A stretch of 64,000 nt of DNA, taken from NCBI GenBank assembly GCA_938015595.1, contig CALLPI010000007.1:62001-126000 (forward strand), read 5' to 3'. Under the pieces are notes generated by a model. The model was not told where the DNA came from. It did not search any database and saw only the letters and a program-made list of their open reading frames with translations. Shown here in pieces: positions 19,799-49,980 of this stretch (position 1 is the first letter of the stretch; each line of letters opens with the position of its first letter). This DNA comes from an uncultured Saprospiraceae bacterium (GTDB lineage: Bacteria; Bacteroidota; Bacteroidia; Chitinophagales; Saprospiraceae). The translations under genes were made by a program, and so were the position numbers.

Positions 19799-21025
19799 TT
19801 ATACAGCTTGTTGAAGTTTTTTCAGAGTATCGGTAGCAAAATTAACACCTAAAATGGAAGTCAACCCCAAATGCGCCTCTCGCCCAAGGGTGTATCGAAT
19901 GTGCTGTGCTTCCGGCGGCGTATAGCTCAACACCAGGTCGGTAATGAGATTGTAGGCGCCGCGCGTTTTACCCTGCGCCAACTCTTCATAAGAGCGCGCG
20001 GCAAAACTACGGCAAGAGATGGTTTCGCCGGCATGGTTGATGTAGCTCTCACCAGCAATCACTTGGCATCCAGCCGAAAAGTTGGAAGAACCGATGCCTG
20101 ACCAGTGGATATTGATCTTACTGTTGGGGCCTTCTACCCCGGCGGCAATGTCCTGCGCTGTTAGGGCATTGTTAGCCGTGCGGTCTCTGAACACGAGCAC
20201 CCCAACACTGGCTGGTCGTAGGGCGCGGTAAATCTTTTCGGCACTATCAAAACCGTGCCAGCCAAAGCGATACAGATGCTGGCCCTCCACCAAGTAGGCT
20301 TCGTCGCTGCGCTTGGCTACTGCAGGGCTAGGGTCAGTACTGCCCCAGAACTTGAACACCATCCCAGAAATTAGCAGGACAAAAAGGTCGTCGTTGGGGC
20401 GCTTGGCCGCCGGTATGTCGTGGTTTCGTCGTATGCCAATTAGATGTGTCTGGCTGGGGTCAAAGCTCCATTGAGACATCTTGAGCGTATCGCTCGGCTT
20501 CTTGAATTTTTCCACTGCTTGTACAACCGGTGAAGGCGCCGACTCAAAATGCTCTTTGACCTGGCGCAGCGCTTCAAACCACTGCACGTACTCCGGGCTT
20601 GGGTTTTCTGGCGTGTACTTGCTCCATTTGCAATTTATCCCCTGTGCCTTCCAGCGGCGTATGTGCTCTTGTACTTTTATACCGGCTACTCCATCGGGCG
20701 TACCTATGGAAGCTTCCTTCTCCACACTGCGCACATACTCTTGGAAAAGCCGCAGCGCTGAGTGGGTACGATAGGCAAATACGCCAGGTGGATCAGGACG
20801 TCGGCTGAAGCCCGCAGTACGCAAAAATTCCTGAAGTTCCCACACCGAGGTGCCAGTAACTTCTGTAAACGGACGCCACACGGAGTTGCTTTCATCGCGC
20901 AGCATGCCTTTATTTTGCAGTGCAGGCGACATGAGGGCGTGAAAAGGCAGTAAGAACGCTTTGGCGTTCTGGGGCTTGGCGCCAGCATCTACTACACCAA
21001 GGCGAAGGGTAACTGCTGTTGACAT
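19799..21025 (-). CDS. peptidoglycan-binding-domain protein with unassigned C-terminal domain
   Basis: 408 residues, no signal peptide visible. Residues about 58-127 form a PG_binding_1-like three-helix domain (SVWELQEFLRTAGF ... GVFAYRTHSALRLFQEYVR ... GVAGIKVQEHIRRW). Residues about 190-370 form a beta-rich domain I cannot name. It contains INIHWSG (His307) and, ten residues on, SAGCQVIAG (Ser317, Gly319, Cys320). A His followed by SxGC recalls the active site of YkuD L,D-transpeptidases (H...SHGC), but the rest of that fold is not recognisable. It may act on peptidoglycan or be an injected or phage-tail-like effector; both are inference. A frame open 255 bases further upstream has no family support, so the start is placed at 21025. 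Probably co-transcribed with the metallopeptidase gene. Confidence 0.65.
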   Translation of the reverse strand: MSTAVTLRLGVVDAGAKPQNAKAFLLPFHALMSPALQNKGMLRDESNSVWRPFTEVTGTSVWELQEFLRTAGFSRRPDPPGVFAYRTHSALRLFQEYVRSVEKEASIGTPDGVAGIKVQEHIRRWKAQGINCKWSKYTPENPSPEYVQWFEALRQVKEHFESAPSPVVQAVEKFKKPSDTLKMSQWSFDPSQTHLIGIRRNHDIPAAKRPNDDLFVLLISGMVFKFWGSTDPSPAVAKRSDEAYLVEGQHLYRFGWHGFDSAEKIYRALRPASVGVLVFRDRTANNALTAQDIAAGVEGPNSKINIHWSGIGSSNFSAGCQVIAGESYINHAGETISCRSFAARSYEELAQGKTRGAYNLITDLVLSYTPPEAQHIRYTLGREAHLGLTSILGVNFATDTLKKLQQAV

Positions 21026-21145
21026 GAAGTGTGAATTTTCGGTGATGAAACTGCCGGAGCAGCTACTTCTGCTACTTGTAAAAATATGTTGAAGCAGTAA
21101 ATGTAGCCCTTTTCTCCGCTTGGCGTCATTTTTCTTTTTCCTTTT

Positions 21146-21153
21146 TACTTTTG
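21146..21153 (+). promoter_or_regulatory. -7 box TACTTTTG directly before the thioesterase ATG
   Basis: Exact TAnnTTTG ending only four bases before the ATG at 21158. If used, transcription would start at or next to the start codon, giving a leaderless or near-leaderless mRNA. Confidence 0.4.
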
Positions 21154-21157
21154 CCCT

Positions 21158-21943
21158 ATGACCGCAGAAGCACTCACATACCGGGAGCGATTTCTCGTAC
21201 GCAGCTATGAGATTGATCCATACAAGCGCATTGCACCAGCAGCATTGGTGCGCCTCATGCAAGAAGCCTCCATGCAGCACGTGCTGAAACTGAAACTCTC
21301 AGTGTGGGATCTGGAACCACAGGGCATCTCCTGGGTACTCATACGGCAGCATCTTTGCATTAATCGCCTGCCTCTGTTAGGCGAAACCATTGAGGTACTC
21401 ACGTATCCTTCGGGCTTTGAGCGCGTATTTACTCACCGCGACTATCGTGTATTTGATGGCGACGGCGCCGAAATTGCGCATGCCTCTACCACCTGGCTGT
21501 TGATGCAGACCAAGGCCAGACGCCTGGCTCGCATTCCGCCAGAAATACTGGCATACAATAACTTATTGCCACCTGCTTCAAGCTGCCTGGAACGTGCAAA
21601 AGCTCAATTGCCAGCTTTCGCGCAAGCAGATTTCACAAGAAAATTCAGCGTCCACTGGTTTGATCTGGACTTCAACTTCCATCTTACTAATAGCAAGTAC
21701 GTGGAATGGATGCTGGCTTCTATGGATGAGACTATGCTGGGGCGCGGATTCCTAAAAGAAATGACAGTGCTGTACGCCGCAGAGGCCGTACTCAACGACG
21801 AAATAGAAAGCCAAACTTGCCTGCTGGATGCCCACACTTGCTTGCATCGCCTCATCCGGCTGGCCGATGGCAAGGAACTAGCCACTGGGCAAAGTTTGTG
21901 GAAGACCTCCGATGAATGGAATAAAAAAGCCCTTGAAAATTAG
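21158..21943 (+). CDS. acyl-ACP thioesterase
   Basis: Double hot-dog hydrolase of the FatA/bacterial acyl-ACP thioesterase family (Acyl-ACP_TE), 261 residues. It releases fatty acids from acyl carrier protein. The first hot-dog repeat opens with FLVRSYEIDPYKRIAP; the second contains DLDFNFHLTNSKYVEWML, which holds the catalytic Asn/His region. Cytoplasmic. It is divergent from the PG-binding-domain gene, with a 132-base gap. Chain-length preference cannot be read from sequence. Confidence 0.88.
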   Translation: MTAEALTYRERFLVRSYEIDPYKRIAPAALVRLMQEASMQHVLKLKLSVWDLEPQGISWVLIRQHLCINRLPLLGETIEVLTYPSGFERVFTHRDYRVFDGDGAEIAHASTTWLLMQTKARRLARIPPEILAYNNLLPPASSCLERAKAQLPAFAQADFTRKFSVHWFDLDFNFHLTNSKYVEWMLASMDETMLGRGFLKEMTVLYAAEAVLNDEIESQTCLLDAHTCLHRLIRLADGKELATGQSLWKTSDEWNKKALEN

Positions 21944-22137: not shown

Positions 22138-23958
22138 GTGGCATACAGACCTACAGCATATTTCCTTCAAAAATCCCTGCTTGGGCTGGCCCTGGGCATA
22201 CTCTGCTCTGCTGGGCACAGCCAGGATTTTTTACTGGATGCTTGCACCATAAATTGCACCCAAAATGATGCGACAACTGCCCACTGGGCGCGCCATATAC
22301 AACAACAAGCCCCCATGTGGGCGCACGCGGGTTTTACCGGATTATGGCTTCCTAAACTACCTACCAATCAGTTTTCAACATGGAATGCCGTCCTTGTTCC
22401 GCTCCGAGCCAATAGATTAGAACCTGTGGCCCATCTATCGGTTGCTGCTCCGTCGGCAGAGCCAGAGCATTTAATGAGCTTATACCAACAGTTGTACGAC
22501 CGGTACCGAATACGCAGTTTTTGCCTCAGCGGAAACCCAGAGCCCCGTTGGTTTGCCACTGCACTTAAGTTGGCCGGTGCTAAGAAATCGCCGCCCTTGG
22601 TTGCTGTGGCAGACCTAGGAAGAAGCCGCAGCGTACAAAGTATGGCTGCCTGGCTCAGGGAAGTATATGATTCGCTACCTAAGCCGCACTCTGCCCAGGC
22701 CTTCCCGCGTGTGCTTGACCACCCCCTGCGTGAAGCCCTGCGAAAAGCTTGCACCCAACCAAGCTACGACGTGCGCAATATATTCAGCGCCAGCTTACGC
22801 GATGCTAGCGTATTCACTGGTTTCCATGCTGTTACTTATGTCAACGCGTCGTTTCTCCCACCAGGCGATTCCATTGCTCGTCCGATGCTTGCCTATGCGT
22901 GGCTGCTGACCAACAACCAACTTGGACTGCCCCTGGTTGCCCTCCAAGACTACCAGCAACCCGAGTACCAGGAAGCCATAAACCAACTATTGAAAATACA
23001 CAAGCGCTACATTTTCAACTCTACGCAAGTAGAATACCTCAATCGGCCCGACACGGGCTTGCGCAGCCTGTACCTGTCTGCCGCCCAGGGCATTGACGAA
23101 CACCGCGTACTGTTGTTTCAATTGGACGGGCGCAATACCCCAGCAGGTAAAGCCACGCAAGGCGCCTCCAGGGATGTACTGGTGGCCATCAACTTTGGTG
23201 ATGCCCCGCTCAAGGTCTGGCACGAAATCAACACTTCTAACTTGCACCCAAGCGACCGGTTCTACGACGTCACAGGCTTATCAAACACCCCGGAGCTGAG
23301 CCTTGAATCGGGCAAGGTACAAGGTATGGAACAAGCCATCTATCTGGAAGTACCCGCCCGAAGCTATGCTGTATGGGTGCAAGGCGAGACCGAGTTGTTA
23401 ATACCTGGCGAAATTCACCTCAACGCCCGCCGCACGGGTGCTGCGGTAGAGTTGAGCTGGGATGCCCTTGCAGAGCCAGGTATTCGCTTTTTTGAAATGG
23501 AGCGCAGCGTAAATGGTGCACCATTCCAGTTGCTGACGCGCGTGCCAGTACTAGCTCAGGCAACAGAAGCTGCCTATCTATACTTAGACGAAGCCCTCGA
23601 CAAAGGCAAGCGCTATGCCTACCGCGTAAAGGCCGTCAAAGACAGTACCTGGTTTGCTTCACCGGTTGTGCAGGTAGAGATCCCCGCTGACCGCCTCTAC
23701 TTTAAAATATGGGCTGGCGCCAACCCTGGCGAGCGCGTGCTATACATTCGAAGCAACGTATCCGGCCAAGCACAACTACGCATCCTAGACAAAACCGGAA
23801 CCATAGTACGACGCGAAAATTTCGGCATCCAAAAGGGCGAAGCCCGCCAGCTACTCCCCACTGCCCAACTTTCTCCAGGGCTGTACTTGATAGACGTGCG
23901 GATGAATAACGAGCGCATCTTCAGCGGTCGCATGGTACTGACACCTCACCGGCAATGA
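22138..23958 (+). CDS. secreted GH13-like protein, probably catalytically inactive, with FN3-like and T9SS type A domains
   Basis: 606 residues from a GTG start; no ATG fits the signal peptide (about 1-29, ending SAGHSQ). Residues about 30-420 look like a shrunken alpha-amylase (GH13 subfamily 5-like) barrel: AGFTGLWLPKLP (64-75), DHPLREALRKAC and YDVRNIFSASL (210-220), then VTYVNASF (232-239) where active enzymes have FVDNHDT, and LAYAWLLTNN. Recognisable DVVxNH, GFRxDAVKH and catalytic Glu segments are missing. About 421-425 begins a C-terminal alpha-amylase-like/FN3-like part (FN3-like about 431-525), and about 526-606 is a T9SS type A sorting domain (SGQAQLRILDKTG ... LSPGLYLIDVRM). I infer a secreted, surface-attached carbohydrate-binding pseudoenzyme. 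A -7 box lies 40 bases upstream. Confidence 0.75.
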   Translation: MAYRPTAYFLQKSLLGLALGILCSAGHSQDFLLDACTINCTQNDATTAHWARHIQQQAPMWAHAGFTGLWLPKLPTNQFSTWNAVLVPLRANRLEPVAHLSVAAPSAEPEHLMSLYQQLYDRYRIRSFCLSGNPEPRWFATALKLAGAKKSPPLVAVADLGRSRSVQSMAAWLREVYDSLPKPHSAQAFPRVLDHPLREALRKACTQPSYDVRNIFSASLRDASVFTGFHAVTYVNASFLPPGDSIARPMLAYAWLLTNNQLGLPLVALQDYQQPEYQEAINQLLKIHKRYIFNSTQVEYLNRPDTGLRSLYLSAAQGIDEHRVLLFQLDGRNTPAGKATQGASRDVLVAINFGDAPLKVWHEINTSNLHPSDRFYDVTGLSNTPELSLESGKVQGMEQAIYLEVPARSYAVWVQGETELLIPGEIHLNARRTGAAVELSWDALAEPGIRFFEMERSVNGAPFQLLTRVPVLAQATEAAYLYLDEALDKGKRYAYRVKAVKDSTWFASPVVQVEIPADRLYFKIWAGANPGERVLYIRSNVSGQAQLRILDKTGTIVRRENFGIQKGEARQLLPTAQLSPGLYLIDVRMNNERIFSGRMVLTPHRQ

Positions 23959-24070
23959 TCCTTCCCCTTTGGAGTTTGCCATTTCGACTTTCAAAATCTT
24001 TATGGCGTTCCTATTGCCTCTAAATCATTTTACCAAACATTTTGAGCTTGCCATTCGTGGCAAAGCCCTG

Positions 24071-24078
24071 TATCTTTG
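24071..24078 (+). promoter_or_regulatory. promoter: TTG 24048-24050, 20 bases, TATCTTTG
   Basis: Best full match in the window to a Bacteroidota -33/-7 promoter: TTG, a 20-base spacer, then TATCTTTG. It lies 43 bases before the ATG at 24122 and inside a longer open frame, which excludes the start at 23969. Confidence 0.65.
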
Positions 24079-24121
24079 TATAGCGTATCAAAAATCTTTC
24101 ATTCACAAAAACCGATTTATT

Positions 24122-26011
24122 ATGAAAAATTATCTTAATCAACTTTCCCTGTTCATATTGAGCCTGGGGTTTGCCAGCCAGTCGGTTTTTGCTCAGTCCA
24201 ATGCAGATTTCCTTCTTGTTCAGATGGATGAGGCTTCCAATCCCAATGCCATTTCCCGCATAGGCAATACTCGTCCTACAACCCAGGGCGGCTATGTTTC
24301 GATAGGCACTTGGGGAGACGGCGAATGGTCAAGGGCTATTCTAATGATTATGGATGGCAACCTAACCTGCCAACGTGCCATTCGCTTACACGTAGAAATA
24401 CCCGGCTTTCTACCCGGGCAAACCAGAGCACAGGAAAGCTATGGAGCAGACGTCGTACAAACCGGCAACAACGAATACGTAGCACTCATTGCTGTGAATA
24501 TGAGCCTGGCGGGGCAGGTCATTGCACAAGATCTTGACTATTACTTGCTCAAACTGATTGTACCAGCCAGCGGCAATCCTCAAACAGTATGGTCCAGGCG
24601 CCTTCGAGGGGTGTACAATGACACTCCCCAATGTCTGGAGCGCACCCGCGACAATGGTTTCATCCTCAGTGGATACAGCAACCCAGAGCAAGCACTGAAT
24701 GCACCCTCCGTTGCTTTGACAGTGCTGGGCAAGTACGATGCCAATGGCAGCCTGGAGTGGGCCAGACGCTACATGCCTAATACAGGCGAGTGCAGAACTG
24801 ATCTTCTCACGCTTTTACCAGGTACAGTTCGGAGGCCAGTGGTTCAAACCCAAGACAATGGCTACGTCTTTACCCAGCACTGCAACGAATACATCTACAT
24901 TACAAAAGTTGATGCACAAGGAAACTTAGTGTGGAACAGAAGATTCAGGGCTAGCAATGGCTTTTTTGACGGGTTTGTAAATTCGGAGTGGCAAATCATA
25001 TTCGGTTTCGGAGCCGGTACAGCGGGTGCCGTAATAGGTGTGAGGGAATTGCCGGACGGGCGGCTGGCATTTCTGGGCAACCAATTCTCGTTCATTGTAT
25101 CTGCCTGGGGCATTCCGGCAGGCAACAACGCAGTGGGCGCGCTAATGCCCATGAGCTATGTATTCATCACCAGTGCCGATGGCAACTTTCTGCACGGCAA
25201 CGCTTTTTTCCAGCGCACCCCTTTCAGTAATACCAACCCCATTGACATTTTGGCCCATGACTTTCAGCTCTTATCCAACGGCAACTTCGTGGTAAGTGTC
25301 GGACTTCGCTCACATTGTTTCAACGGGCCAGATTGCACTTTTGTGCCGGGGTTGTTAGAAGTTAACCCACAAGCTACAGGCTTTGATGCTGCCGTGGTGC
25401 AATCTCTGGAAGTGACGCACCCCAGCGCCCATCATTACGCCACCAACTACCCGTATGGATTAGACTACATTCGTCTAACGCCTGTACGCCCACCTACCCC
25501 TATGGTCTTTAGCTACAGCAAGCATTATGCCCTACTGAATAGGTGGCCCGGACAAGGCGGTAGCACACTTTTCGTGGGCTGTACGCAAAATTCAGGTAGT
25601 ATGCACAGTTTTCCTTTCACTTTGGATATAGGTGCCTCGGCCGACGTCACATCTGAAACCTTGAGTGTGGCAGCATCTCCTGCTACCAGTTGGGTAATCA
25701 GTATAGTCAACAGCGTACAGTCTTGTCTGGTGTCTTCTACCCTTCACCAGCCAGAGCCTACCCATAGGGCTATTGCCCACATCGTGCCGAAATTGACCAG
25801 CCATTCTTTTGAAATTCAAGTATTAGATACTCAGTGGCAGCAGGCTACCTATATCCTCTGCGACCTTCAAGGGCGCATATTTAGCCAGGGGCGCCTGTCG
25901 TCCAATCGCCAGGAGGTAAGCGTAATCCACTTGCCTGCAGGTATGTACATTATTCGGCTACAAAACAACAACAATATAGTTACAGAAAGAGTGATCGTGC
26001 AGCGCCCATAG
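24122..26011 (+). CDS. secreted protein of unknown function with T9SS type A sorting domain
   Basis: 629 residues. Signal peptide about 1-25 (ends SVFAQ). The body has repeated short motifs such as DNGFILSGYS and DNGYVFTQHC typical of Bacteroidota beta-propeller-like proteins, with a KYDANGSLEWARRY-type blade pattern; no enzyme motif is seen. The last ~75 residues (HSFEIQVLDTQWQQATYIL ... LPAGMYIIRLQNNNN ... ERVIVQ) form a type A sorting domain, so export through T9SS and surface attachment or release is expected. The start is fixed by the promoter and signal peptide. It follows the pseudo-amylase gene by 163 bases with its own promoter. Confidence 0.82.
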   Translation: MKNYLNQLSLFILSLGFASQSVFAQSNADFLLVQMDEASNPNAISRIGNTRPTTQGGYVSIGTWGDGEWSRAILMIMDGNLTCQRAIRLHVEIPGFLPGQTRAQESYGADVVQTGNNEYVALIAVNMSLAGQVIAQDLDYYLLKLIVPASGNPQTVWSRRLRGVYNDTPQCLERTRDNGFILSGYSNPEQALNAPSVALTVLGKYDANGSLEWARRYMPNTGECRTDLLTLLPGTVRRPVVQTQDNGYVFTQHCNEYIYITKVDAQGNLVWNRRFRASNGFFDGFVNSEWQIIFGFGAGTAGAVIGVRELPDGRLAFLGNQFSFIVSAWGIPAGNNAVGALMPMSYVFITSADGNFLHGNAFFQRTPFSNTNPIDILAHDFQLLSNGNFVVSVGLRSHCFNGPDCTFVPGLLEVNPQATGFDAAVVQSLEVTHPSAHHYATNYPYGLDYIRLTPVRPPTPMVFSYSKHYALLNRWPGQGGSTLFVGCTQNSGSMHSFPFTLDIGASADVTSETLSVAASPATSWVISIVNSVQSCLVSSTLHQPEPTHRAIAHIVPKLTSHSFEIQVLDTQWQQATYILCDLQGRIFSQGRLSSNRQEVSVIHLPAGMYIIRLQNNNNIVTERVIVQRP

Positions 26012-27143: not shown

Positions 27144-30100
27144 TCACTGCGTCTGCGCACTTGCGTTTACGTCTCCTACTTTTATGCCAATAAAGTTAAT
27201 GACTGTGTCCCTTTTCAGATTAGGCAATGTGGCCTCCTCAGGAAAACCGGCGCCAAAGAATGGATTGGAAGGTACGGGAAACTGAAAATCAGCTGGTACA
27301 AAACGCCAGGAGGTATTGCCGGCGAACTGACTGTCCACCCCCAATATCATGCGCCGCAGCAATATCATGTCAAGCGTAGTAATGGAGCCAGAGCGATTGA
27401 TGTCAGCAGCAATGAGTTTGTAGGGCGAGTCCAATAATTGTACCCCCAGAATGTGCCGGCTGATCAACACCAAATCGAACGTGGATATACCGTTGGCCGG
27501 ATTGGACAATTTCTCAGGCCGCACAATGTAAGCGCGATCTCCAGGGACATCCAAAAACTCGTATTGCCCATTGGTGAGCGTCCATTCGTCTGCCTGCAAA
27601 CCGCCGCTGAGTTTTAAATTGACCTGAGCGATAGGTACATGATGCTCCGTGCGGATGATGCCCCTAATGCTCCAGGTTTCTGGGCAGGTTTCTGGCGGCG
27701 CCACCACTTGGATGTTGGACTGGCAAGCTGACTGATGGCCATTGGCGTCTGTCATCCAGATGTTGATGGCGCGAAAACCCACTGAATCACAGGTCAAGAA
27801 ATGCAAGGTGTCCAGTGTGATTGGGCTGAAAGAGAGCAACGCCCCGCTACAATTATCTTGCGCCAACAAAGGAAACTCTTGCGGCCTTATCTCGAGTTGA
27901 CCATTATCGCCCAGGGTAAGTATTATGTCTTGCCGGCACTCCAGCGTAGGTGGCGCGCAGTCTCTTACTTCAAAGGTAATCAAGCCAGTAGTCACGTTGC
28001 CACACTCGTCATCCAGCACCAATTCAATAGTATGGACGCCTACCGGGTAATTGCCAGCAATGCGGTATTGACCGGGTGACATTTGGATAAGCATGCCAAA
28101 GTTATCAGGGCCTACACCTTGATTGTGAAGCCTGAGCCGGTGCAAAATGCCTGGCTGCGGCGCGCAATTGTCGCTTGCCTGAAAGTCGAGAATCACTGGC
28201 CCGGTGCAGTCGTCGGTAGCACAAAATGGCGAAACTGGTGGGCTAAAGGCAAACTGTGGCGCTTCGCCATCCAGAATATCCCAGCGCTGCACATAGCGGT
28301 ATGAGCCAGTGGCTGGCCCTAACAGCACTAGGCTGCCATCAAATGCCAGGCGGTAGAGCATGCCGTTTTCTACCCATACTTCGTAGCCTTTACCCGCATC
28401 CAGCCCACTAAGGCGAGGCAGAGTTACAGGCGGGGTATTGGCCGAAGTCTCGCAGAGATTCACGATGGTGAAGGTGCGCTGCATACTCCGGCAACGTGCC
28501 GGCGCGCCTAGAGTGATAGTATCTGTCACAACGCTGACCACAAGGTTGTCACAGGTTTGCAACAGGATTTGTACATCGCCTGGCAAAGTATGGGAGGAGC
28601 AACTCGTCGCCAGATCGTTGGGCAAAACAAACCGGTATCGAAACACGCCATTGACCTGCACGGTCTGGTTTGCCACGGCATCGCCCACTCGCCACTGGCG
28701 CTGTATGGAGCCGTTACCACAACTATCAATAGAGCTTTGTACCTGAAAAGCGACATCAAACGGGCAGTTATCGGCAAATACTGGCGCCTGGTAGCTGGGG
28801 TTGAAAAAAACCGTCGGGTCGTCCAGGCAAGTCACCACCATGTTGCTGGGCGAAGACACTACCGAGGGAGATACAGGGTCAGTGATGTACACTGTAGCCT
28901 GGCAATCATTGAAGTTGCCAGCACAGTCAGTTACGCGCATCGAAACCTGTACACTCAGATGAGTTGGACAATCCAAATCAATAAAATTCCGATAGGCGCT
29001 ATCAGGCTCAGAAGCCAGTTTAATTTGGCGATTGCCTAGGCAGCAATCGTCGCGGCTGCCATTGTCTATCAATAGCGGAGTGATGCGCCCCTGGCCGCCA
29101 GCGTTGAGTGTCAGGTTGATGCTACCGTTGCACAACATGACAGGAGGCAGGCTATCCACCACCTGAATATAGCCGGTGTATTCGGATGTGTTGCCACAGG
29201 CATCTCTGGCTTCATAGCGCACTGGATGCACCCCCAGCTGCAGGCCAGGAAAGGGCACCCAGCCGCCACTATTGGCGTTACTGCCATTGATATACCGCGC
29301 CTCCCCAACTGGGGTAAAAATTCGCACTGTAGCTGTATTGCAGGCGTCGGTCACCAGCGGCGGTGGTATAAACCCTACGGCGCTGCACCCGCTTAGCCCG
29401 TTCTGCTGCGAGGGTAAGGTCGCCATCATATACACGGTATCGGCTTGTATTATCGGGGGGGTTTCATCTTTTACCTGAATAATCTGCACGTTGCTGTTTC
29501 CGGCACCATCGGTGGTATAGATCTGGAATCCGCAAGCGTCTAGCACTGTCCAGGTGCGCAGGATGATAAAACTGGTGAGCGGATTACCGCAAAAACCTAT
29601 AGTGTCATCGCGATGATTATATGTTAAACCACAAGCAGGTGTATCTACCAGATTGGGCACGCCAGCTTTGCCAGGAAGGGGGTCAGTTAAAGTTGGATCA
29701 GCGCTGTATTGGCTACACTCTAGTACTATCGAGGGCGGAAAACGCAACTGCGCCTGTGTGCCACGCGCCAACTGGATGATCTGGGTGGCAGTAACAGTAT
29801 TGCCGAACACATCAGTAGAAAGCCAGGTACGCGTAATGCGCGTGGTGATAAGGCCACATGGAAAGGTTTGAATTTCGTCAGTGTAGGTAGTCTGTACGGG
29901 AGCGCAATCTGTAGCTGTAGCCATACCGGTCGTAGTGGGGTCTGTGGCGCTGGTACAAGGCAGCGTTGCGTTGGCAGGCACTGTCAATACAGGCGGATGC
30001 ACATCGCGAGCAATGATTTGGGTAGTGCAATACAGACCAGTACAACTGTCAGTGAGCACACCCAGCAGTGGGATGTAGGCATACTGCGCCGGAATCGTTG

Positions 30101-31064
30101 TGCCCAGTGAGTTGCCAAAGGGATCCAACACCTCTGTACTGAACCCCCGATAAGTAATGGGCGTCGTGGTCATCAGCATGGCAGGCGTGACTTCGGCCTG
30201 GCATTGCGTGGGATTTAGCGTTATGTTGATGCTGCTTTGACAGGAAGGTGTGCCAGCTTGACGTACGGTAGTATGGGCCTCCACTGTGACGGTGCATCCG
30301 GTTTTATTGACAGTAGTAAAAGCGTTGGCACCTGCATCAAAAGTATAACGCACCGAATAATGCCCCTGCCCTAGTGCCTCGGGATTAAACAAAGGGCCGG
30401 AGTAAGTCTGCCCATCCTGCTGGCGAGTGATGACCCAATAATCATCTACCGGATTCAAAGGCGTCAGGTGCTCATCAAATGGCGTCGAAGCCCCGCCGTA
30501 CAGGAGTGTTCCAGAACTATTGCTGCAATAAAAATCCTCCAGGTATGCAAGATAGGGGTCGGGATAATAACAAGTATTGATAACAGGGCCAAAGGTATGG
30601 CCAGGATAGTCCTCCACGTTCTCAACTACTAAGACGTATTGAGCGGCATCGCGGTGAGCAAAGTGCAATACATAAATCCCAGTTTGCCCCACTTCAAGAA
30701 TGGGCGTACCAGGCAGCAAAGGAGATAGCGTAACCGGATGCAAAACTCCAGCTGCGTATTGCAGTTGCCAGTTTCGACCGCTTGCCCCGCCGGCAATGAT
30801 CAGCCAGGAGTCAAAAACGCCAGTATTGGTCTGCTGGCCATTGACTACTACCGGCGCACTGCGACAGGAGCAGGGCAACCCGATGTCGGGCGTACCATTG
30901 TCATCAAGGTCAAGCCCTGCAGCAGGTATGGCATTGAGATATTGAAAACTACCCTGAAACTGGCTAGGGAAACCCACCTGAATGGAATCAGGCGTTTGGG
31001 CATTCAAAAGAATGGTGCTGTACAGAGCTAATGCCAGCCATAGACCCGTAAAGTATTTGTTCAT
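27144..31064 (-). CDS. large secreted HYR-like/dockerin-like multidomain protein
   Basis: 1306 residues. Signal peptide about 1-22 (ends LLNAQ). The N-terminal ~250 residues resemble an extracellular recognition module. The middle (about 250-1160) contains repeated Cys-containing beta modules with HYR-like signatures (ARDVHPPVLTVPANATLPC, VKDETPPIIQ, VRDCAPPTLEC) and Asp-Ala-Cys-Gly segments. About 1165-1215 is a carboxypeptidase-regulatory-like fold (IRGIIRTEHHVPIAQVNLKL). About 1220-1260 is a dockerin/EF-hand-like Ca-binding segment (ADINRSGSITTLDMILLRR). It ends at GDVNASAQTQ with no type A or B sorting domain, which is unusual for such a protein here. Likely surface or matrix adhesion; this is inference. 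Driven by a -7 box at 31093-31100. Confidence 0.82.
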   Translation of the reverse strand: MNKYFTGLWLALALYSTILLNAQTPDSIQVGFPSQFQGSFQYLNAIPAAGLDLDDNGTPDIGLPCSCRSAPVVVNGQQTNTGVFDSWLIIAGGASGRNWQLQYAAGVLHPVTLSPLLPGTPILEVGQTGIYVLHFAHRDAAQYVLVVENVEDYPGHTFGPVINTCYYPDPYLAYLEDFYCSNSSGTLLYGGASTPFDEHLTPLNPVDDYWVITRQQDGQTYSGPLFNPEALGQGHYSVRYTFDAGANAFTTVNKTGCTVTVEAHTTVRQAGTPSCQSSINITLNPTQCQAEVTPAMLMTTTPITYRGFSTEVLDPFGNSLGTTIPAQYAYIPLLGVLTDSCTGLYCTTQIIARDVHPPVLTVPANATLPCTSATDPTTTGMATATDCAPVQTTYTDEIQTFPCGLITTRITRTWLSTDVFGNTVTATQIIQLARGTQAQLRFPPSIVLECSQYSADPTLTDPLPGKAGVPNLVDTPACGLTYNHRDDTIGFCGNPLTSFIILRTWTVLDACGFQIYTTDGAGNSNVQIIQVKDETPPIIQADTVYMMATLPSQQNGLSGCSAVGFIPPPLVTDACNTATVRIFTPVGEARYINGSNANSGGWVPFPGLQLGVHPVRYEARDACGNTSEYTGYIQVVDSLPPVMLCNGSINLTLNAGGQGRITPLLIDNGSRDDCCLGNRQIKLASEPDSAYRNFIDLDCPTHLSVQVSMRVTDCAGNFNDCQATVYITDPVSPSVVSSPSNMVVTCLDDPTVFFNPSYQAPVFADNCPFDVAFQVQSSIDSCGNGSIQRQWRVGDAVANQTVQVNGVFRYRFVLPNDLATSCSSHTLPGDVQILLQTCDNLVVSVVTDTITLGAPARCRSMQRTFTIVNLCETSANTPPVTLPRLSGLDAGKGYEVWVENGMLYRLAFDGSLVLLGPATGSYRYVQRWDILDGEAPQFAFSPPVSPFCATDDCTGPVILDFQASDNCAPQPGILHRLRLHNQGVGPDNFGMLIQMSPGQYRIAGNYPVGVHTIELVLDDECGNVTTGLITFEVRDCAPPTLECRQDIILTLGDNGQLEIRPQEFPLLAQDNCSGALLSFSPITLDTLHFLTCDSVGFRAINIWMTDANGHQSACQSNIQVVAPPETCPETWSIRGIIRTEHHVPIAQVNLKLSGGLQADEWTLTNGQYEFLDVPGDRAYIVRPEKLSNPANGISTFDLVLISRHILGVQLLDSPYKLIAADINRSGSITTLDMILLRRMILGVDSQFAGNTSWRFVPADFQFPVPSNPFFGAGFPEEATLPNLKRDTVINFIGIKVGDVNASAQTQ

Positions 31065-41529: not shown

Positions 41530-44500
41530 CTATCTCATTAGTGTTACGTCGCCCTTGAAGAGTTTTACCGTGCCATCAATGAAGCGCACCTCGGCGTACC
41601 ATACAAAGACGTTGGAATTATATAGCCTACTGCGGTCGCTTCCGTCCCAGCCATAGGTTGGATCATTGGGCGGGAAGTTATACACCTCAAAAGTAGATTC
41701 GCCCCAACGATTAAACACCTGAAAAGCTTGTATGTATTCTACATCCTCGCCAGCAAATACGAGTAAGCGGTCATTGGTACCGTCGTTGTTGGGCGAGAAG
41801 GCCGTGGGCACAAAAATCTCAAAAGGCTTTTCCACGTAAATCGTCACCTGGTCGGATATGCGGCAGCCATTGGTATCCACAAGTTCTGCAGCATAAGTAG
41901 TGGTGATGAATGGCCTGAGATCGAGCACGGCGCAATCTAAGCACGGTAAGGTATCTGCGCTTGTCCAGCGAAACAGACGCACCTCGTTTTGCGGTATGTT
42001 GTACTGCGCCTCTATGCGTGCATGCTGCCCCAGACGGATAAACTGGTCGGGGCCAAGATCAAGTACTAGGGCATTGCCTTCGCGCAAGTTGGTATCAAGC
42101 ACTAACTCGCATCCAGTAGCATCTTGCACCACAATCCGGTAATTGCCGCCACTTAGGTTGGGGTAGAACGTCTGCGCACGGAAAGGCCCGCCATTTATAC
42201 TGTACAGATAAGGGGGAGTGCCGCCAGTGATACCACCAATGAGTATGCTGCCGTCAGCGTCGCCAAAGCAGGTGGGGTTGTCTGTAATTACGTTCAGTGC
42301 TCGCGGACGCTCCGAATTTTCCGAAACGACCATGACATCAGAGGCGCTACAACCGTTTTGGAGGTTGATGACCCGCAGGGTGTAGGTTCCAGGAATGGTC
42401 ACCTCAAACGATAGGTCGGTGGATACCAAGGAAGATTCACCGTTGCGCGTCCACTCGTAGCGCACTCCAGCGCCATTGGAAGAGCCCGTACCATCAATGC
42501 GCACGCTGGGATTGAGGCAGTCAATCTCACGATCCTGACCAGCATTGGCCAGTGGCGGGGTTATGTCTTGCGTTACTTGTACAGTATCGGTATTGGAACA
42601 ACCGTTACGCTGGTTGGTCACGCGCAGGATGTAAAGTCCAGGGCGGTTCACTGTAGGCATAAGCGTATTGGCCTCGGAGACGATACCGCCGTCTTGTGTC
42701 GTCCATTGATAGGTAATAGTGTTGCCAGTGGCAGAACCGGCGCCATTGAGCACATCACTAGTGACTATACAAGTGAGATGACGAGGCGTACCGGCTTCAG
42801 CCGCAGGAATTTCTACATCTTGTAACACTACAGCGGTGCGTTCTGAGATACAGCCGGTGTAGGTATTGCGCACGCGCAGGGTATATTGCCCAGGTTGTGT
42901 AGCAGTGTAATTCATGGTATTTGCACCGGCAATAGGCGTCTGGTTGGCTCCTAGCCATTGATAGGCAATGTCGGCGCCAGTGGACGACCCCGCTCCACTA
43001 ATAACCACTGCAGGCGTCACACAATCCAGCGTATCCAGGGCAGCCACCACTACCGTGGGTAGTGCGGTCAAGTCAGCTACAAAGGTATTAGCCGGCGAGG
43101 ATACACACCCATGGATGCTGTCTGTCACTACAAGACTGTAAGCTCCTGCCTGATTAACTTGCGGCTGCCGAAGATTTTCATTAGAAGCTGTAATACCCGG
43201 ACCAGCCCAATGATACACGTAAGCCGCTCCTTGGCTGGTAGCGCTTCCGCCCAGAATGGTTACAGGTTCATTGCAGGTCAACTCGCGCGCAGGACCGGCA
43301 TCGGCTATAGGTAGCGGAATCTGAGCTATCTGGACACTATGCGAAGCCACACAGCCAAAGTTGTTGGTTACTGTTACAACATACGTGCCGGGGGTATTTA
43401 CTGTAATGCTTGGAGTAGTTTGGGCATTTGACCACCCATAAGCAGTAAAATTGGCTGGCACACTAATAGTTGTAGAACCCCCTGTGCAAAAAAAGTTAGC
43501 CCCACTGATGCTGAATACTGGCAATGGAAACTCCTGCACTGCTTGGGAGGCAACCGCACTGCAGCCATTGGCATCGGTCACAGTCAGTACGTACAGGCCA
43601 GGCGCACTAACGGTGATCTGCGGCTGAATAGCACCCGTACTCCAGCGGTAAGCGCTGAACGGCGTAGCTGAGCTCAAGGTGGTGCTCGCCCCGGCACAGA
43701 AGGACGGCGTGCCTGCAATTTGTAGCTGTGGCTGCGGGAAAAGCTCCACCTGTACAGTACCCGACCCCAAACACCCAAAAGCATCTGTCACAGTGACACT
43801 GTACGCGCCAGGCTGTGTAACAGTGATGCTCTGTGTATTAGCATTATTTGACCATTGATAGGTAGTATAGCCAGAGCCAGCATCGAGGGTGGTTTGCGTG
43901 CCTGGGCAAAACTGCAAATTGCCATTAATCTGTGGGCTGAGTTCTGTATCTTGAATAATGGTTATATCATCCGAATTAACACAGCCATTGCTGTCCGTTA
44001 CTGTCACAGATACTACGCCCGGCTGCGATATCTGTATAGTGGGTGCAGTACTGCCATTTGACCACAAGTATTGAGCAAATCCGTTACCGGCATTCAAAGT
44101 AGTAAATCCGCCCACGCAAAAACTGGCAGAGCCGCCAATTTGCACATCGGGCAGCGGATGCTGAGTGACTTGCACCCCTGATGAAGATGCGCAACCATTG
44201 CTGTCGGTAGCTGTAACACTGTAAAAGCCCCCTTGCGAAATAGAAATGGTACGCCCATTGGCGCTGTTCGACCACTGATAAGCAGCATATCCCGCTCCTG
44301 CATCAAGCACTACGCTTTGGCCAGTGCAAAAGGTAAATGTACCAGTTATTTGGGGGGGTATTACCGGAAATTCTGTAACAGACACACTGCCATTTGTTAC
44401 GCAGCCATTAGCATCTATTACTGTAACTGCATAACTCCCACCGGAAGTAACAGTGATAGACGGTGTATTGGCATTATTAGACCACTGATAAGTCACGAAA

Positions 44501-47500
44501 CCCGCTCCAGCATCCAAGATAGTTTGTAGCCCCTGGCAAAAACTGAGGTTGCCTGTAATACTGGGAAATACCAGTGGATGCTCCACCACGCTGACTGAAG
44601 CAGCACCTGAGCACCCGAAGGCGTCAGTTACAGTGAGGCGCACAGTGCCAGGCGTACTCAATGTAATGCTCTGAGCAGTAGCACCGGTGCTCCATTGATA
44701 GCTCTGAAAGGCCGTAGAAGAACTTAGCGTAGTAGAACCGCCTTGGCAGTACTGCAAGGCGCCGGTGATTTGGGGCGAAGGTAACGGCCTCTCTGTTACA
44801 TCTACTGAAGCCTGGCCGCTACAGCCGTTAGCATCAGTCACTGTAAGCCCGTAAGTACCTGGCGTAGAAACCGTAAGTTGTTGCGTATTGGCATTGTTTG
44901 ACCAACGATAAGTAGCGTAGCCGTTTCCGCCGTCCAGGGTTGTACTAGTACCTGCACAGAAAAATAATACGCCAGAAATAACGGGCTGCAACTGCGGCAC
45001 CTGGGTCACTATCACTGATGCCGAATCAGAACAGCCATTGGCATCCGTCACGGTGAGGCTATAGTTGCCTGCAGCAGATACCTGAATGGCTGAAGTAGTC
45101 TGGTTATTACTCCATTGATAAGATACATTAGCTATACTGGCATTAAGCACAGTGCTGCCGCCTATGCATATTTGTAGAACACCTGTTATAGCTAGAGTCG
45201 GATTAGTATGTTGTACTACTTGTTGTGTACGTGAGGCACTACAACCATTGGCATCTGTGACGGTTACAGCATAATTTCCTGGAGTATTTATTGAAATACC
45301 AGAGGTAGTAGCCCCCGTTGACCAACTGTATGCGCTGAACGCAGGCGCAACATTCAATGAAGTGGAGGCACCGGCGCAGAAAGCAGGGTTGCCTTCAATA
45401 TTAAATACTGGCAATGGATTCATGGCCACTGTGGCGCTCGCAGTACCTGTACAGCCATTGGCGTCTGTCACTGTAAGGCCGTACACCCCTGGGGTATTCA
45501 CTACAACCTGTTGGTCGGTAGTGTTATCAGACCAACGGTAAGCAGCAAAGCCTGCACTACCACTCAAGGTAGTAGAACTACCTGCACAAAACTGGAGTGC
45601 ACCAAAAATAGCAGGCTGGGGCATCGGAATCTGTACAACAGTTGCAACTGTAGAGGATGAGCATCCATTGGCATCCGTTACGGTAAGGCCATAATTGCCC
45701 GGAGTAGATACAGTGATAGCAGGCGTCGTTTGCCCATTGCTCCATTGGTAAGAAACATTACTTATGCTAGCACTGAGCACAGTACTGGCGCCAGTGCAAA
45801 ACTGGAGCACTCCACTTATCGCTAGCGAGGGATTGGCATTTTGTATCACGCTTATGCTCTGTGATGAACTACATCCATTAGCATCGGTCACGGTCACCGA
45901 GTAGCTACCAGGCATATTTATTGTTACTGCATTACTTGAGGAATTGTTAGACCAAATGTAAGCAGCAAAACCTACAGGCGCGCTCAACAACGTAGAAGCG
46001 CCAGCACAAAAGGCCGGCGTGCCCTCTATGCTGAAAACAGGTAGTGCGTTGACGGTGACGGTAGCACTGGTACTAGCCGAACAACCATTGGCATCGGTAA
46101 CTGTCAGACTATAAACCCCACCTGAACTAACGGTAATCTGGCTAGTCGTATCTCCGCCTGTCCAGGCAAAACTGGCAAAGCTACCCCCCGTTGCGCCAAG
46201 TGTCGTACTTTGCCCCTGGCAAATAGCCAGCGAACCACTGATCTGCGGAGTAGGTAAAGGAACCTGTACCACACTCCGGGCTGCGCTGGCCGAACAGCCA
46301 TTAGCATCAGTCACTGTTACGCTATAATTGCCTTGATTAGACACAGTAATAGAAGACTGCGTAGAAGAAGTGGACCAAAGATAGCTGCTGAAATTGCCGC
46401 CTGTAGCGGTCAAAGTAGTTTGGCCTCCTGCGCAAAACTGGTTACTTCCAGAAATTTGAGGTGTAGGATTAGGGTTTTGTACCACGCTGACTGCAGCCTG
46501 TGCCGAGCAACCATTGGCATCTGTAACAACCACTGTGTAAGTGCCTGGGCTACCCACTGTAATGGAAACCCCAGAAGCTCCGTTCGACCACTGATAGCTG
46601 CTCAAACCCGCCGTAGCCGTCAGTACAGTAGAAGCGCCCTGACAATACTGCAAGGCCCCGCTGATCGAAACTGACGGAGGCGCATTAGCTATCACCGTAG
46701 CTGACGCTGTGCCAGAACAACCATTGCTGTCCGTTGCGGTCACCTGATAAACGCCGCCAGCATTGACGGAAATCTGCTGGGCGGTTTGCCCATCCGACCA
46801 AGCGTAAGTAGCAAATCCGGCAGAAGCTGATAAAAGTGCGCTGCTTTGCCCAGTACACAAAGTCATTGCACCTGTAATGGACACTGTCACTGCTGGCAAT
46901 TCATTTACAGTAACACTAGACGAACCAGTGCAGCCATTGGTGTCGCTTACCGTAACGCTATACGTACCCGTAGCGAAAAAGGTAGCGGTTTGACCATTGC
47001 CTCCTCCATCTGACCATTGGTAAGTGACATAGCCGGCACCGGCATCCAGTGTGGTACTGGTGCCAACGCAAAAGCTCGTGGAGCCAGTAATCTGCGGTAC
47101 TGGCGAAGGCAGTTGTTGCACATTGATAGACGTTGAGCCTGTACACCCATTTGCATCAGTTACCGTCAAGGTGTATGCCCCGGCAGTGCTAGCTGTAATC
47201 GAAGGGCTCTGAGCACCAGTACTCCAACTGTAAGCACTGAAATTCCCGACAGCTACGAGCATAGTGCTCCCGCCGGGACAAAAACTAGCCGAACCGGAGA
47301 TAACAGGATTAGGATTAGCATTGACCATCAGCACAGCGCTCGCTGTGCTACTACATCCGGCGCTATTAGTCACTGTAACGGTGTAAGTACCGGCAGTACT
47401 TACACTTATGCTTGGCCCGTTGCCCCCACTCGACCAGGCATAAGTACCAAACCCCGCCTCTGTACTCAAAGTAGTGCTCGCGCCTTGGCATATAGTTAAA

Positions 47501-49740: not shown

Positions 49741-49980
49741 GTTGAATGCCAATATTGAAAAAGCTGAGTAAAACATGTTTTTTATTTGTCAATGACCGCT
49801 TGTATCAAAATATGCCTTTCTACCCCGCGATACCGTGCGTTATACACTGCCACAGGGTTCGAGCTTTACAGGAAGAATAGGTTTTGTCACACAGCAGCTC
49901 CGAATTAAAGCGCCTAAAAAACAGCAGAATAGCGCGATATCGGAACAAAATTTTTCGCGTCGCCACTAGCTGTACATATG

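Follow-up and report, generated by a model that had tools for sequence, protein, structure and literature searches.

The gene at positions 22138 to 23958 of the window, by which we mean the entire 64,000-nucleotide stretch of DNA analyzed here, probably encodes a secreted, non-catalytic GH13-derived protein with a binding or scaffold role. That the protein is GH13-derived and non-enzymatic is very likely, and the view that its function resides on a new face, not in the old groove, stands at about even chances. In the history that we propose, an alpha-amylase of the liquefying (GH13_5) type, exported by the T9SS, would have given rise to a secreted non-catalytic descendant that, to judge from the sequences, lost both catalytic Asp residues together with the substrate loops and domain B; by the same evidence the family arose once and is under purifying selection. 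The descendant is predicted to retain a folded eight-stranded barrel and domain C; from what is known of the families concerned, it would be exported through the outer membrane by the T9SS and then displayed at the surface or released. It might there bind or scaffold through the conserved beta6-beta8 region, the C36/C40 motif and domain C, instead of the old sugar groove, its partner being perhaps a protein, perhaps a surface polymer of the cell itself. A bacterial clade that lacks the triad and domain B, with the rest under selection, would provide a clean test of a non-catalytic amylase barrel and of which barrel face carries the new function, and annotating such proteins automatically as "alpha-amylase" would overstate the starch-degrading capacity of these bacteria. 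Hereafter, "stripped" refers to family members without domain B and the triad, and "complete" to relatives that keep the amylase motifs. The features of the gene are as follows.

22138..23958, + strand: stripped GH13-derived T9SS-type cargo gene, 606 aa, GTG start, stop included
22138..22221, + strand: putative signal peptide, aa 1-28, by eye (hydrophobic stretch, then SQ/QDF; Q29 is the probable mature N-terminus)
22222..23013, + strand: predicted (beta/alpha)8 barrel, domain A, aa 29-292, from the AlphaFold2 model and GH13 structural matches
22243..22257, + strand: C36-x3-C40 motif after beta1, from the alignment
22354..22374, + strand: beta2-alpha2 region, aa 73-79, site of the absent NGYDP loop, from the alignment with complete relatives
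22441..22461, + strand: beta3-alpha3 loop, aa 102-108, site of the absent domain B, from the span comparison
22528..22530, + strand: S131, position of the catalytic nucleophile Asp at the end of beta4, from the alignment
22612..22614, + strand: D159, position of the general acid Glu at the end of beta5, from the alignment
22852..22854, + strand: F239, in the transition-state Asp position, five residues past the predicted beta7, from the alignment
23014..23385, + strand: predicted domain C beta-sandwich, aa 293-416, from the model and structural matches
23125..23175, + strand: domain C insert, aa 330-346 (DGRNTPAG...), where most complete relatives have a gap
23410..23682, + strand: FN3-like beta module, about aa 425-515, from the model strands and the sequence pattern by eye
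23722..23919, + strand: probable T9SS type A sorting domain, aa 529-594, sub-threshold here but matched in the family

The reading frame was present at these coordinates without an internal stop codon. The likeness to GH13 amylases, which the original prediction had drawn from family patterns by eye, was borne out by profile searches. The window protein matched the NCBIfam PRK09441 alpha-amylase model NF006970 with E=1.3e-15 and 57.1 bits, far under the curated cut-off of 516 bits, and we regard it as homologous to the PRK09441 alpha-amylases and not as an equivalog. A five-sequence family profile searched against the PDB retrieved liquefying amylases (1ud3, E=6.8e-10), which by these scores are the known proteins nearest to it in sequence. 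This group, namely B. licheniformis 1vjs/1bli, AmyK38 1ud2/1ud3 and the PRK09441 proteins, we take to be GH13 subfamily 5.

The AlphaFold2 model, made with 13 family sequences (mean pLDDT 82.4 and pTM 0.70, with weak spots at aa 19-27 and 38-45), showed eight strands alternating with helices and, after them, domain C, the barrel strands being at residues 32-34, 68-70, 95-101, 127-131, 156-159, 190-193, 231-234 and 264-268. In this model beta2 sits within AGFTGLWLPKLP, YDVRNIFSASL lies between beta6 and beta7, and LAYAWLLTNN spans alpha7. A Foldseek search against the PDB placed branching enzymes and other amylase-family enzymes at the top (best E 6.7e-13), and the top VIA-align match was the B. 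licheniformis alpha-amylase 1vjs (Z 33.0, rmsd 3.2, 332 residues aligned, 18% identity). Because 1bli, also a B. licheniformis alpha-amylase, scored differently (Z 28.1, rmsd 3.1, 333 aligned), a Z of about 28 was taken as the fair value; since the Pyrococcus amylase (Z 30) and plant amylases (Z 28.8) score about as near, both groups lying at 28-30, the fold alone picks no subfamily. A second AlphaFold2 model, of the Phaeodactylibacter xiamenensis member (pLDDT 79.3), presented the same picture, with Z 32.9 to 1vjs and 27.2 to 1bli. The GH13 barrel is thus a prediction that recurs in the models of two members, with Z values of 27-33 to amylases, and the predicted fold of the window protein is a GH13 (beta/alpha)8 barrel, as had been anticipated, with domain C. 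No structure of human 4F2hc was among the Foldseek and VIA-align matches listed, which speaks neither for nor against a likeness to that protein (discussed below), and a Foldseek search of viral models gave mostly FN3-type or tail-protein matches and nothing informative.

To identify the losses, 16 stripped proteins were aligned with 33 complete ones, the latter being part of the complete matches found, with duplicates removed; the two sets were separated by profile score, not by catalytic residues. The three catalytic columns held Asp, Glu and Asp in 33/33/33 of the 33 complete proteins versus 0/2/0 of the 16 stripped ones, among which L059 and L061 alone kept the general-acid Glu, and the window protein has S131, D159 and F239 at these positions. 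The segment VTYVNASF, originally placed at the FVDNHDT position, indeed aligned with VTFxNNHD of the complete proteins, and the DVVxNH, GFRxDAVKH and catalytic Glu segments, which could not be found at the outset, correspond to LEPVAHLSVA, IRSFCLSG and LVAVADLG. Throughout the stripped family the NGYDP loop is missing (16/16) and DVVxNH is degenerate or gone. A triad at shifted positions was also considered and was ruled out as far as the aligned columns show, with Asp at neither Asp column in the 16 members.

Mutation was only a part of the loss; the deletion of domain B and of the beta2 loop had been overlooked earlier. From the beta2 Pro to the beta4 nucleophile column, the window protein has 58 residues and the 16 stripped proteins 52-58, whereas 32 of the 33 complete proteins have 303-323, the other row (span 10, presumably L023) being truncated. 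The distance from beta4 to beta7 was preserved (107-111 in stripped versus 102-109 in complete proteins), and the short beta2-beta4 span together with this unchanged distance shows that domain B and the beta2 loop were removed while the core strands were kept. The beta3-alpha3 loop has about 7 residues in the model, so that domain B, a typical and not a strict GH13 character, is lacking. Compared with the liquefying alpha-amylases, the stripped protein shares the barrel strand order, the beta6-beta8 residues and domain C, but it is without domain B, the NGYDP loop, DVVxNH and the catalytic triad.

The criteria listed for GH13 in the available part of PMC11239784 are the barrel, the triad, four to seven conserved regions and a retaining mechanism on alpha-glycosidic bonds. 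The family counted more than 184,000 sequences in June 2024, and rBAT and 4F2hc are given as its non-enzymatic members (same part of PMC11239784). In the window protein the triad residues of beta4, beta5 and beta7 are replaced, and the conserved regions at beta3, beta4, beta5 and beta7 are deleted or degenerate, with those at beta2 and beta8 recognizable. As the barrel is present but the triad and the conserved regions fail, we call the protein GH13-derived, not a GH13 enzyme. The pseudoenzyme reading proposed originally is supported by the predicted GH13 barrel with domain C and by the absence of the triad from the aligned columns. Triad loss by itself is no proof of inactivity, because GH13_45 comprises bacterial amylolytic enzymes with a potentially aberrant triad, such as BmaN1 (available part of PMC11239784).

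To define the distribution of the family, we searched with a profile of the barrel and domain C from five full-length members. Among 398 genomes of the window's family, 16 genomes in 7 genera (window included) contained a full-length stripped member, defined by a match to the whole profile with at least 458 bits; the next match had 239 bits and began at profile position 114. All 16 frames lack internal stops. The carriers include Phaeodactylibacter luteus, P. xiamenensis, further Phaeodactylibacter and metagenome genomes, Phaeodactylibacter belonging to the order Saprospirales. Within a set of 100 related genomes (window's included), a full-length orthologue was found in four others, with identities of 52, 37, 37 and 37%. 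The wider samples, 396 genomes from the order and 395 from the phylum, yielded six members and one (the window's own), respectively, and none outside the window's family; the family, order and phylum samples share genomes, and at most four candidates were scored per genome. A contig scan with two peptide patterns found 12 loci, all repeats of genome matches, so that the total stays at 16. Presence is patchy, since the stripped gene occurs in 2/3 genomes of the window's genus and G001 has a complete relative only. No bacterial stripped GH13 protein was recognized in the literature searched, most subscription papers being outside its scope.

In the phylogenetic tree, the stripped proteins formed one side of a branch with 100/100 support. 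When the tree was rooted with four GH13 sequences that are lipoprotein-like by eye and keep the triad, the stripped proteins were still one clade (100/100, stem 1.13), and none (0%) of the 200 bootstrap trees united the complete proteins on one side; this rooted tree has a long outgroup branch (1.39), seven rows with unusual letter make-up and 11 open inner branches. Because the complete relatives and the four outgroup sequences all keep the triad, the loss is derived, and the simplest history for these sequences would be that the stripped clade arose by loss from a complete ancestor.

The poor scores against curated models and the missing motifs might also be explained by gene decay or by mis-assembly. 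We consider this extremely improbable, because 16 full-length, stop-free members exist in 7 genera, the short beta2-beta4 span is identical in kind across 16/16 members, and dN/dS is low in close pairs. For six such pairs the full-length dN/dS was 0.07-0.11, and for the beta3-beta5 half alone it was 0.04-0.13; the pairs form two trios and are not independent, the three values of one trio are rough (dS 1.5-1.8), and domain C reached 0.25 in one of the six. The window gene itself is too distant from its nearest relative for such an estimate (dS 1.5-2.7 or saturated, depending on the part, with 0.40 for beta3-beta5), and its own selection is therefore inferred from the family. At that level the intact frames and the low dN/dS agree with the earlier impression of a maintained gene, and the expected homologues with the same missing residues exist in 16 genomes as one clade. 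The stripped family is, by these sequence measures, maintained by purifying selection and not decaying; decay was ruled out for the family on the intact frames family-wide and the low dN/dS.

We then compared conservation in four segments, using 31 complete rows after dropping L023 (N-terminus cut) and L030 (C-terminus cut). Mean pairwise identity over aa 92-179 (beta3-beta5) was 0.27 in stripped versus 0.51 in complete proteins. In the other segments it was 0.56 versus 0.54 (beta1-beta2), 0.61 versus 0.59 (beta6-beta8) and 0.52 versus 0.45 (domain C). Among the four segments, constraint was thus lost only in beta3-beta5, the former site of the nucleophile, the acid and domain B. Residues 79-91 and 180-185 fall outside all four segments, and alpha2 (79-91) is likewise poorly conserved in the stripped family (0.43). 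Several positions are constant in the family specifically: C36 and C40 are Cys in 16/16 stripped and 0/33 complete proteins (two complete rows have a gap there), where Trp and Tyr/Phe occupy the columns; R221 (Arg in 2/33 complete proteins) and D320 are further such constants, and the domain C insert has T334 in 16/16 and A336 and G337 in 15/16 members. An acidic DD in the beta7 loop is found in 13/16 members, not in those of the window, G002 and G222, and DY[YF]G in the beta8 loop in 14/16, not in those of the window and G002, so that the conserved face is smaller in the window and G002 proteins. With constraint relaxed in beta3-beta5 but still strong across beta6-beta8 and domain C, the pattern suggests that the protein binds or scaffolds through a new face.

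The same pattern mildly disfavors carbohydrate binding in the old groove, because beta3-beta5 is the least conserved part. A lectin that anchors cells to food by means of glycans still bound in the former cleft, such as starch or an algal storage glucan, is possible but doubtful. The cleft would be more open without domain B, as for 4F2hc (available part of PMC8537225), and residues common to complete relatives remain, e.g., W70, D194, N236, D271 and Y272. Nevertheless, the poorly conserved half is the one that held the sugar subsites, the conserved R, D, K and H of beta4 and H and D of beta7 are gone in the window protein and in most or all members, and 4F2hc bound nothing on glycan arrays, according to PMC8537225.

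An enzyme with a new active site, built on C36/C40, on acidic residues of beta6 and beta8 or on the acidic beta7 loop, seems quite improbable. Such an enzyme would be in keeping with the Cys pair, which is invariant in the stripped family and found in no complete relative, with the conservation of D194, D211, D271 and H288, with the DD of the beta7 loop in 13/16 members and with the precedent of the aberrant-triad GH13_45 enzymes (PMC11239784, available part). However, complete relatives also conserve D194, D211, D271 and H288, so these residues are probably structural, the DD is missing from the window, G002 and G222 members, and C36/C40 may merely form a disulfide.

Among known proteins, a non-catalytic binding or scaffold protein of this build would work most like the ectodomain of human 4F2hc (CD98hc), its closest working analogue. 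That ectodomain has a barrel and domain C without domain B and with the three catalytic residues missing, its cleft is more open for want of domain B, and neither glucosidase activity nor glycan-array binding was found, as reported in the available part of PMC8537225. The likeness is one of presumed working and concerns the barrel and domain C without domain B or triad. On the other hand, 4F2hc (GH13_34) resides in animal membranes, is covalently bound to the light subunit of a transporter and is classed with the oligo-1,6-glucosidases, whereas the window protein is bacterial, has a signal-like N-terminus and a T9SS tail, and is not filed as a GH13_34 member. Because 4F2hc is classed with the oligo-1,6-glucosidases and the window protein with the liquefying amylases, independent origins are inferred. 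We think it rather unlikely that the window protein is a bacterial, independently evolved counterpart of 4F2hc in the narrower sense, one that serves another surface protein or polymer as its binding subunit and contacts it through C36/C40 and the domain C insert.

The nearest sequences are the complete T9SS-type amylases, such as G000:C2 of the window's own genome, which have in common with the window protein a signal-like N-terminus, the GH13 barrel and domain C, many of them also showing by eye an FN3-like module and a sorting domain. Unlike the stripped proteins, they keep the triad in 33/33 and a span of domain B length in 32/33. G000:C2, the one further related gene in the window's genome, is a 1577-aa frame with amylase motifs kept, located at L038 3480-8210 (+) and containing an amylase domain and a T9SS tail. 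The frame also has a match to a MopE copper-binding motif and a sub-threshold DUF1349, an unusual mix for an amylase.

The presence of G000:C2 would fit a role of the stripped protein as a non-catalytic partner of the same cell's complete exported amylase, as plant ISA2 (GH13_11) is thought to help ISA1. Among its differences from the window protein, ISA2 is located in plastids and acts in complex with ISA1. It is a non-catalytic GH13 paralogue kept by selection and thereby a precedent for retention (available part of PMC12510319), and in some other genomes further GH13-like frames give weaker, partial matches, so that another amylase partner may exist. A full-length complete paralogue accompanied the stripped form in only 6/16 genomes, however, on different contigs in all six, and was not found in the other 10, including G002, G140 and G274 with 99-100% estimated completeness, when at most 60 first-look candidates were scored per genome. 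We give this partnership little credence.

The secreted nature of the protein was examined at both ends. By eye, the signal-like N-terminal layout was similar across 13 aligned family members, and no transmembrane anchor was seen in the window protein beyond it. The T9SS type A domain of the original prediction scored below both cut-offs in the window protein alone (Pfam 20.9 versus 27 bits, NCBIfam 14.3 versus 23), but at the family level 13/13 aligned members matched at E<=1, the best with 1.1e-10 and 6.4e-11. Apart from the tail below the cut-off, Pfam gave one weak irrelevant match for the window protein. The FN3-like module appears as a beta-rich stretch in the model, and Pfam gave no FN3 match in the window protein. 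The T9SS machinery, as represented by SprA_N, was detected in the window's genome (E=1.7e-145) and in 15/16 member genomes, being absent only in one that is 61% complete, and T9SS export of the stripped proteins is supported by these SprA_N matches.

We also analyzed the neighborhood of the gene. A search of the surroundings of the window gene for a polysaccharide-utilization locus found none; the gene's nearest neighbors encode an acyl-ACP thioesterase, a T9SS cargo and a short-chain dehydrogenase, and no functional link emerged from them. A divergent GT2 gene adjoins the stripped gene in 11/16 genomes (in G166 with one further listed frame between), or in 12/16 counting G358, whose contig starts inside the adjoining GT2; in G000 (the window's genome), G002, G140 and G222 the GT2 homologue is located elsewhere. 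On the other side, a gene that is presumably RimM-like flanks the stripped gene, by eye, in most of the GT2 subclade and in G140. In our view the GT2 pairing reflects synteny within one subclade and does not prove a function. L056, L057 and L064 are among the members of the larger subclade in which the stripped gene lies beside the divergent GT2 glycosyltransferase.

Other frames of the window were recorded as well. The frame at 23969-26011 (+) encodes another T9SS cargo, 680 aa long (sorting domain E=1.8e-6), whose function is not known; it begins, as listed, 11 bases past the stop codon of the window gene, and the two genes may be co-transcribed. A 2748-aa adhesin-like frame at 41530-49776 (-) has PKD, Ig-like, SprB-repeat and CHU_C matches, and a 1306-aa frame at 27144-31064 (-) shows, by eye, HYR-like repeats, along with a dockerin type I match that is borderline (22.6 versus 22.9 bits). 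The listed frames 19799-21280 (-) and 21158-21943 (+) overlap head to head by 123 bases, and for the minus-strand frame the GTG start has probably been set too far upstream.
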